Assembly: GCA_021731295.1 (NCBI GenBank)
Contig: JAKFXQ010000004.1
Location: 1 to 37,903, forward strand
Direction of reading: 5' to 3'
Source of the DNA: Patescibacteria group bacterium
GTDB taxonomy: Bacteria; Patescibacteriota; Minisyncoccia; Phycocordibacterales; UBA2100
DNA: 37,903 nucleotides
Shown one piece after another: positions 4,447 through 32,409 of this stretch; positions within the stretch are counted from its first letter, which is position 1; every line of letters starts with the position of its first letter. The position numbers were made by a program, and so were the translations under genes. Below the pieces are notes generated by a model. That model searched no databases and had not been told where the DNA came from. It saw only the letters and a list, made by a program, of their open reading frames with translations.

Positions 4447-4647
4447 GCGCGAACGACGGGCTCTGTCAGGAATATTTTCTATCCTGGGTCAGCGAGTGAG
4501 TAATCACCAGGTCACGCATAAAATGCTCGCCGTCGCTCACATTTTTGCGCGACCCCGCCTCGGCCGTTCCGCCTGTTGGCGTAACATGCCTCCGGCCCGC
4601 ATTACGCGAAAAAGGATGGCGCAGGCCATCCTTTTTCGTCTCAATGC
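4447..4647 (-). repeat. tRNA-3'-linked composite palindromic element (copy A, tRNA-Asp)
   Basis: 14-bp exact direct copy of the tRNA-Asp 3' end (GCGCGAACGACGGG at 4447-4460 and 4646-4659), AT hairpin with gcCGTCgc apex at 4520-4546, GCGACCCCG at 4549-4557, 14-bp-stem hairpin at 4607-4638. Confidence 0.75.
4607..4638 (-). terminator. hairpin terminator downstream of tRNA-Asp
   Basis: cgaaaaaggatggc-gcag-gccatcctttttcg, 14-bp stem with A/T-rich flanks. Confidence 0.7.
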
Positions 4648-5001: not shown

Positions 5002-5002
5002 G

Positions 5003-5076
5003 TGTCGGGGGCGAGACTCGAACTCGCGACCTAGCGCTTATGAAACGCTCGCTCTAACCGGCTGAGCTACCCCGAC
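5003..5076 (-). tRNA. tRNA-Met(CAU), elongator-type
   Basis: GTCGGGG...CCCCGAC A; anticodon loop TTCATAA; T-arm GCGAGTTCGAGTCTCGC; acceptor position 1-72 paired, so not initiator. Confidence 0.9.
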
Positions 5077-7104: not shown

Positions 7105-7320
7105 TTTTGTTGCGGGGGCGGTGGGGGCGGGAATTGGCCAAGAGCTCGAAAATTGCCGTCGCAATTTTCTCCTCTCGGCCCTGGATGCGCGGTCCGTTCT
7201 GCTGAACGGACACCTCGCGCATCCCTGCAATTCTCGACGCGAGAGTGTCCCACACTCTCGCTCCCCCGTCATACAAAATGCAAAAGAGTCCGCCACAAGG
7301 ACGGACACTTTTGCATTTTG
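7104..7320 (-). repeat. tRNA-3'-linked composite palindromic element (copy B, tRNA-fMet)
   Basis: Direct copy of the tRNA 3' end (ATTTTGTTGCGGGGGCGG at 7104-7121 and 7315-7332), AT hairpin with CGTC loop 7148-7169 in outer stem 7137-7180, GC hairpin 7183-7224, inverted T-arm TGCAATTC 7226-7233, hairpin 7240-7260, CCCCCG 7263-7268, terminator hairpin 7273-7321. Confidence 0.85.
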
Positions 7321-7392
7321 TTGCGGGGGCGGGAATTGCACCCGCGACCTCAAGGTTATGAGCCTTGCGAGCTACTACTGCTCCACCCCGCG
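7321..7392 (-). tRNA. tRNA-fMet(CAU), initiator
   Basis: CGCGGGG...CCCCGCA with C1xA72 mismatch, anticodon loop CTCATAA, T-arm GCGGGTGCAATTCCCGC. Confidence 0.93.
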
Positions 7393-24430: not shown

Positions 24431-24610
24431 AGTGAGGATTCGGTCACAAATATTTCTTGCGCCGTCGCGCAAGAAATTTCGCGACCCCGGCTCGCACCCG
24501 CATCAGCTGATGCGGGTCCCGCTGCGCCTTTCGAATCCCTCACGTAGTGTCCCCCGGACACTACTCCTCTCCGTCCATCAAAAAACGCGCCAGTGGCGCG
24601 TTTTTCTCGG
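24431..24610 (-). repeat. tRNA-3'-linked composite palindromic element (copy D, tRNA-Ser)
   Basis: Degenerate direct T-arm copy at 24432-24446, 11-bp AT hairpin with CGTC loop 24452-24477, perfect 22-nt palindrome 24496-24517, exact inverted copy of 20 nt of the tRNA-Ser 3' end split as 24530-24541 plus 24566-24573 by a 24-nt hairpin insert, terminator hairpin 24581-24605. Confidence 0.88.
24581..24605 (-). terminator. hairpin terminator downstream of tRNA-Ser
   Basis: aaaaacgcgcc-agt-ggcgcgttttt. Confidence 0.75.
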
Positions 24611-24699
24611 CGGAGAGGGAGGGATTCGAACCCTCGAGACAGTTTTACCCGCCTAACACGTTAGCACCGTGCCGCCTTCGACCACTCGGCCACCTCTCC
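24611..24699 (-). tRNA. tRNA-Ser(GCU)
   Basis: GGAGAGG...CCTCTCC G, anticodon loop GTGCTAA, long variable arm, T-arm GAGGGTTCGAATCCCTC. Confidence 0.95.
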
Positions 24700-32132: not shown

Positions 32133-32166
32133 AGTGGCAGTATACAGAACCCATGTCGTCACGGAT

Positions 32167-32236
32167 ATTTTCCTCGCCGACGTTCGGAAAATTCCGCGAC
32201 CCCGGCTCGCGGTTCGGCCCGCTGGCCTCACATCGC
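32167..32236 (-). repeat. partial tRNA-3'-linked element (copy E1)
   Basis: AT hairpin attttcc...ggaaaat 32167-32192 followed by CGCGACCCCGGCTCGC (32195-32210), identical to 24480-24495 in copy D. Confidence 0.65.
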
Positions 32237-32409
32237 TCCGCCTCGGACTAGTACCGAAAAACAGCGCGCAGGCGCGGCAACTTCACGGCAACTTTGTTGT
32301 CCCCACGCATAATTTTCTGCTGAAAATTTGCGCGGGCCCGCCTCAGCGCCAAGCGCTTGCGGCCCGGACAAGTCGAGAAAACGATGCCCCGCATCGTTTT
32401 CTGTACTTG
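32237..32409 (-). repeat. tRNA-3'-linked composite palindromic element (copy E2, tRNA-Ile)
   Basis: Degenerate direct copy of tRNA-Ile 3' end at 32237-32255, AT hairpin 32311-32328, small hairpin 32345-32357, inverted tRNA end CGGACAAGT 32365-32373, terminator hairpin 32376-32402. Confidence 0.7.

Follow-up and report, generated by a model that had tools for sequence, protein, structure and literature searches.

We analysed a stretch of 37,903 nucleotides (nt) from a Patescibacteria group bacterium (contig JAKFXQ010000004.1 of assembly GCA_021731295.1, positions 1 to 37,903; hereafter, the window), and in particular the region at 24431-24699, where the gene for tRNA-Ser(GCT) is followed by an inverted copy of its own 3′ end. 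We consider it probable, at roughly 55%, that this feature belongs to a family of small integrative elements that lack an integrase, restore the gene they enter and are moved in trans. The elements are ~140-250 nt long and have a constant order of parts: a restored gene 3′ end (R), a terminator-like hairpin, an inverted copy of the insertion site that extends 2 nt beyond it (G), a core of two hairpins (P3-P4) and the displaced original gene end (R′). A restored target combined with a displaced fragment is a known signature of integration into tRNA genes (PMC4383910). There appear to be hundreds of copies of this apparently unnamed family across Patescibacteria. The evidence is comparative throughout, and, because the copies share ancestry, raw element counts are not counts of independent events.

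The copy at tRNA-Ser(GCT) and the state of its site

The elements fall into two classes, with insertion in the T-loop (class I) or close to the tRNA end (class II). The window copy belongs to the former and consists of the following parts, a slash marking the insertion point.

24609..24699, minus strand: tRNA-Ser(GCT), the target gene (ARAGORN and Rfam RF00005)
between 24629 and 24628, minus strand: predicted insertion point in the T-loop, TT/CGAATCCC (the R-R′ boundary in class I elements)
24609..24628, minus strand: R, restored tRNA 3′ end, presumably supplied by the element (from the displaced copies in L204, L205 and other class I elements)
24581..24605: terminator-like hairpin with a 12-bp stem and a T-run (repeat search; a terminator by appearance)
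24566..24573, minus strand: acceptor part of G, reverse complement of the tRNA acceptor 3′ strand
24542..24565, minus strand: P2, the 24-nt hairpin acgtagtgtcccccggacactact at the T-stem/acceptor junction
24530..24541, minus strand: T-arm part of G, reverse complement of tRNA positions 54-65, including the 2 nt upstream of the insertion point
24441..24529, minus strand: conserved core P3-P4 (covariance model R1, 84.5 bits; covariation)
24489..24529, minus strand: P3, holding a 22-nt palindrome
24443..24488, minus strand: P4, holding a CGTC-loop hairpin; right end of the element, ...GTGAC
24431..24442, minus strand: R′, displaced original tRNA end, degenerate here and exact in L204 and L205

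A preliminary description of this region had placed the tRNA 3′ end (CGGAGAGGGAGGGATTCGAA, read on the plus strand) at 24611-24630 and its exact reverse complement at 24530-24541 plus 24566-24573, split by a 24-nt segment that itself folds. All of these bases and coordinates agree with ours, and the split falls exactly between the 3′ strand of the T-stem and the 3′ strand of the acceptor. The palindrome (24496-24517) and the hairpin (24452-24477) listed in the same description were correctly located and turn out to be P3 and P4 of the conserved core, whereas the degenerate T-arm copy gtgaggattcgg at 24432-24443 is the displaced tRNA end, kept as an exact R′ of 18-19 nt in L204 and L205; in the window copy, the acceptor part of R′ has already been lost. 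We placed the insertion point through homology with these two loci; the commonest class I offset is TGAC/C. Chance and an assembly foldback artefact, the latter raised in the preliminary description, are both excluded because the same anatomy recurs in independent genomes, at the same and at other tRNAs, and the gapped inverted-match score of the tRNA-Ser copy (15.9) lies beyond the maximum of 11.9 in 50 shuffles.

Within the genus, the tRNA-Ser(GCT) site is filled in L204, L205, L215, L220, L225 and others, and empty in L207, L209, L213 and others; the terminator-like hairpin is missing at several of the empty sites, as judged by eye. A second comparison of this kind involves an unoccupied gene of the window.

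5002..5076, minus strand: tRNA-Met without an element; the corresponding tRNA of genome G024 is filled

In G024, two exact 19-nt copies flank the element. The two tRNA-Met genes correspond in context: each belongs to an Asp-Met-Met cluster and precedes a similar open reading frame (ORF) for a small membrane protein.

The preliminary description had further suggested that the 3′ half of the tRNA could pair in RNA with its inverted copy; such pairing might regulate the maturation of tRNA-Ser. The thermodynamic part of this suggestion holds: in a full-length transcript, the pairing is favoured at -150.2 kcal/mol versus -135.2 kcal/mol for the tRNA and trailer folded separately, a gain of ~15 kcal/mol, and a full-length read-through transcript could harm the tRNA. 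However, the pairing does not look like a function that is maintained. The tRNA plus terminator alone folds as a normal cloverleaf, and comparison of the orthologous loci showed that other members of the genus have no element at this tRNA. Because a terminator-like hairpin intervenes between the tRNA and the inverted copy, and the family, with the same anatomy, also follows protein genes, the pairing is at most a side effect, and tRNA autoregulation appears very improbable.

Insertion points, target-matched arms and the folded core

Class I comprises 28-37 elements, depending on the threshold, with insertion at TT/CRA in the T-loop and a complete gene 3′ end upstream. The right end of the core, ...TGAC, adjoins an R′ that begins at C, the commonest offset (25/45 and 22/30 in two counts). 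Directly left of the core, G is the reverse complement of positions 54-65; the uninterrupted match most often reaches position 65, where the T-stem ends, and both nucleotides upstream of the insertion point are present in G in all 37 of 37 elements. In the long form, P2, usually 24-26 nt, separates the T-stem and acceptor complements, and a complement of the acceptor strand beyond P2 is found in 18 of 28 class I elements, compared with 27 of 260 in a control with other isotypes. In class II, insertion occurs 3 nt before the annotated tRNA end (NN/CAC), the core begins ~46 nt after the tRNA, P2 is lacking and G is the right arm of the terminator-like hairpin; 7-8 of the 8 nt of G match in 49/64 elements, starting at -5 in 39 of these, and starts at -7 or -8 occur mainly where CCA is encoded.

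The arms are specific for the adjacent gene. On average, the proximal G matches its own tRNA at 7.5 of 8 positions and other isotypes at 5.5 (p~1e-44, a value that ignores shared ancestry), and a tRNA on the same strand lies at most 400 nt upstream of 80 of 113 elements, versus 9 with a tRNA on the opposite strand. Where units occur in tandem, the distal G matches less well than the proximal one (6.2 versus 7.5), which fits the expectation if new units enter next to the tRNA. In the elements with a matched R′, the distance between R and core is 44-155 nt and there is no cargo; none of these elements has an R copy more than 155 nt upstream, which would have pointed to a cargo-bearing version. 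Of 22 displaced copies whose gene lacks CCA, 18 have none either, so that copying from the mature, CCA-tailed tRNA was rejected; the remaining 4 of 22 do have CCA, a weak hint that R′ is the older of the two ends. As a separate observation, L009:1217-1360 contains an exact 26-nt direct copy of the tRNA-Ala(CGC) 3′ end 45 nt downstream of the gene, without a core, resembling a tandem duplication.

The core consists of two hairpins with conserved loops, in which structure is kept over sequence and one strand seems to be favoured. Nine cores were aligned, with double changes in 20 of 28 predicted pairs, and a covariance model, R1, was built. Across 95 copies, 97.1% of cells pair in P3-P4, double-change cells number 541 versus 139.5 +/- 10 in shuffled and 50-107 in slid controls, and the covariation score is 0.577 versus 0.181. 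In core columns that are normally Watson-Crick, G-T combinations outnumber A-C ones by 78 to 8, which suggests that the top strand folds on its own, as RNA or single-stranded DNA (ssDNA), and not as part of a symmetric cruciform; this polarity test is supportive, not conclusive, as a single column pair (56-116) contributes much of the excess and G-U counts as paired in the model. The arms behave differently. Among 420 positions in 35 elements, drift from the tRNA affects G alone at 65, R′ alone at 50 and both at 9 (7 of them alike). Because G and R′ drift independently while P3 and P4 are kept, the arms appear to be a record of the insertion event and not a pairing that is kept up, and so the core would be the part under selection or the part required for movement. 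A comparison of site lineages with genome lineages was uninformative, core identity being saturated.

These observations also bear on two explanations that do not invoke mobility. The first is that a functional RNA resides at these sites, such as a tRNA-like trailer in which G, P2 and R′ rebuild a 12-bp acceptor/T-arm helix, a possible substrate of RNase P or RNase Z. The position of P2 exactly at the junction of positions 65 and 66 in many class I elements, the G-T over A-C bias and the strong covariation would all suit such an RNA. However, the pairing of G with R′ is not maintained, P2 is missing from class II, the R′ of the window copy no longer has its acceptor part, a terminator-like hairpin precedes this copy, and presence is patchy within a single genus; hence, we regard this explanation as doubtful. 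The second is replication template switching, in which correction of quasi-palindromes would make matching arms, and perhaps compensatory stems, around any hairpin, so that the arms would say nothing of mobility. The rapid diversification of the stem sequences is in line with this process, which is reported to create and maintain perfect hairpins (PMC8794818). It leaves unexplained, however, the shared core with its conserved loops, the fixed insertion points, the invariable 2-nt overlap and the displaced gene ends after the core, and is improbable as an account of the family.

Spread of the family and its targets

In the genome to which the window belongs (~935 of 998 kb covered), about ten genes have this anatomy behind them. 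We inspected the regions downstream of all 46 tRNAs and found it after tRNAs for Gln, Met, Asp, Lys, Arg, Glu and Ile, and a variant form after those for Tyr and Ala; R1 gives 13 matches, the weakest of which is doubtful. The other copies in the window are as follows.

4509..4597, minus strand: core of a sister element after tRNA-Asp (R1, 95.0 bits)
4447..4463, minus strand: displaced tRNA-Asp 3′ end beyond a second, degenerate unit (direct match CCCGTCGTTCGCGC)
7135..7225, minus strand: core of a sister element, subtype B, after tRNA-Met 7320-7392 (R1 and arms)
32156..32243, minus strand: core of the distal unit of a tandem pair after tRNA-Ile (R1, 94.0 bits)
32300..32364, minus strand: core of the proximal unit after tRNA-Ile, a short variant (R1, 34.1 bits)

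The segment at 4447-4597 thus reads as a decayed tandem, with a class II-like unit after tRNA-Asp followed by the degenerate unit that ends in CCCGTCGTTCGCGC, and 32156-32364 is a tandem pair behind tRNA-Ile(TAT) in which the proximal core is the short one.

Across this genome and 40 relatives, R1 matches 36 of the 41, with 1-32 copies each. These counts are lower bounds because R1 poorly detects three further core subtypes, sorted by eye: B (tRNA-Met 7320 of the window, tRNA-Ala-GGC of the same genome, tRNA-Asp of G024, and L220), C (L206, L225 and tRNA-Asp of G014) and D (L215). In L215, in L206 and at 7109-7270 of the window, these other cores stand in the same architecture of restored end, G with P2, core and displaced end, which suggests a superfamily larger than R1 captures. 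In a phylum-wide sample under strict filters, 32 of 287 genomes match, most strongly in the same order and class. A DNA pattern scan of a species-level collection, blind to context, returned Kaiser-, Taylor-, Nomura-, Moran-, Falkow-, Yanofsky-, Adler- and Saccharibacteria among its positives, as well as one contig labelled Elusimicrobia; on the latter (L108:6150-6760), a tandem array after tRNA-Arg includes a direct repeat of more than 40 nt that covers R and its hairpin. None of the elements tested matched an Rfam family at the gathering score, and we found no prior description in the open-access literature; as far as that search reached, the family appears previously undescribed.

The targets are not confined to tRNAs, and in other genes, too, insertion is at fixed spots. 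The same core occurs at the C-terminus of what we take to be topA (GTKTIPERCS...) in at least 10 genomes, including that of the window, at the ends of genes that are presumably rpsI (WSKR*), an rpsR-like gene and a small membrane-protein gene ending in MMGSSQ or similar, and after what looks like rnpB; these names were assigned from C-terminal sequences and general knowledge rather than by profile search. At rpsI, R (CAAACGCTAG) and R′ (CAAGCGATAG) differ while encoding identical residues, a pattern that a carried, target-restoring end explains. Similarly, R and R′ of topA differ while encoding the same or similar residues. In the topA copy of the window's own genome, the two are identical for the first 33 nt and then diverged, albeit homologous, for which partial copying or conversion may be needed.

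This breadth matters for another explanation, namely, that the elements are remnants of islands moved by tRNA-targeting tyrosine integrases, with attL and attR left behind by internal deletion and P3-P4 an accessory structure of the attachment site. The elements use the same gene subsites (T loop and acceptor end) and show the same restored/displaced pair as the islands of PMC4383910, and an Xer-like protein is nearly universal, being present in 39 of the 41 genomes. Against this stand the short, cargo-free distance between R and core, the inverted copy of attB, which is foreign to the island signature, and the use of 15 tRNA isotypes plus protein genes by a single core family. Such remnants are possible but unlikely.

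A tentative mechanism and comparison with known systems

We favour integrative elements that restore their targets and move in trans. An element would carry R, so that its insertion leaves the target undestroyed. The mobile form would be a single strand, most likely ssDNA and possibly RNA, in which P3-P4, together with G paired with R, would present a target-like duplex at the junction of core and R. A trans-acting recombinase could then join the folded single strand to an intact site, with later units inserting on the tRNA-proximal side. The matching of G and R to each new target might come from selection, from template-switch correction of quasi-palindromes or from copying during insertion; such correction of imperfect inverted repeats is a documented process (PMC8794818) and could do part of this. 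It is also conceivable, although we would not expect it, that G is a true guide, such that the single-stranded element finds its target by base-pairing on both sides of the insertion point, with 2 nt before it and 3 to ~17 nt after it, and is inserted by a trans-acting host enzyme, with R and G copied from the target at each new site. If so, this would be a self-retargeting, protein-less, nucleic-acid-guided insertion system. The 2-nt overlap of the inverted target copy makes nucleic-acid-guided insertion directly testable. More generally, integration at the ends of essential genes would be achieved by elements far below the size of an integrase gene, with target restoration built in, and the annotation of tRNAs and 3′ ends in reduced genomes would be affected.

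Several results weigh against mobility of this kind. By inspection of the 41 genomes, none of the Y1, tyrosine recombinase, reverse transcriptase (RT), IS110 and serine recombinase families tracks copy number, and genome G007 has 8 elements and no tyrosine-recombinase match. Nothing was found in viral contigs with two strict patterns or in phage and plasmid records with one query, and the comparative evidence includes no observed excision, circle or transposition. The direct repeats of class II are only a few nt long, the seed of R1 consists mostly of tRNA-linked copies, and no recent burst is visible because core identity is similar within (0.71) and between (0.70) genomes. Finally, the identity of R and R′ over the first 33 nt in the topA copy of the window's own genome also fits copying of the target rather than carriage.

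As for candidate enzymes, the genome of the window has no serine-recombinase match, and its sole tyrosine-recombinase match is an Xer-like protein (L010:14554-15465) that scores above the archaeal XerA cut-off and below those of XerC and XerD, so that this is probably a single-Xer system. A group II intron or retroelement was rejected, with no RT in this genome, G004, G024 or G034 and no Rfam intron match on the elements tested. Independently, a segment a short way beyond a partial 16S rRNA gene (L128:765-872) marginally matches Rfam group-II-D1D4-1, with 36.4 bits against a cut-off of 35, and is possibly an rRNA-linked intron.

Among known systems, the 178-bp repeats of Escherichia coli tyrT (rtT RNA) also follow a tRNA and contain copies of its 3′ end; to our knowledge, they have neither an inverted copy nor a P3-P4 core, and the elements described here have no Rfam match. 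The IS200/IS605-REP/RAYT systems likewise comprise small, palindromic, single-strand elements, with a short guide near the foot of a hairpin. By contrast, the present elements restore target ends, and no Y1 transposase match was found in the genome of the window or in the element-rich G004.

Phages of the CTXphi type, which hijack Xer, resemble our elements in being integrase-less and in the idea of a folded single strand that mimics a host site and recombines with a double-stranded one; the sites here, however, are tRNAs and genes, and there are no phage genes. The bridge RNA of IS110 (PMC11208160) likewise comes from a non-coding part of the element and is complementary to target sequence on both sides of the insertion point, a likeness that we treat as analogy only: here, the complement is continuous and to one strand, and an IS110 (DEDD) transposase match occurs in only 3 of the 41 genomes, that of the window not among them.

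Recombination between a folded single-strand site and a double-stranded one is known from integrons, and attC sites are, like P3-P4, short, variable in sequence, conserved in structure and folded strand-specifically beside a recombination junction (PMC2727003). As a candidate, attC was rejected, its GTTRRRY/RYYYAAC boxes being present in 0 of 152 elements; moreover, the target here is a tRNA or housekeeping gene rather than attI, there are no gene cassettes, and the core has two side hairpins. A further parallel is with the tRNA-gene islands of the Islander type, mobilized by tyrosine integrases (PMC4383910), which share with our elements insertion within the tRNA, a restored target, a displaced 3′ fragment and the T-loop and acceptor-end subsites. 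Indeed, as in those islands, the elements lie between an intact tRNA and its displaced 3′ fragment, the latter being degenerate in the window copy, although these units of ~140-250 nt are too small for an ORF and encode no integrase. What sets them apart is a core of two covarying hairpins, the presence of the target site in inverted copy and the service of 15 isotypes and protein genes by one family.
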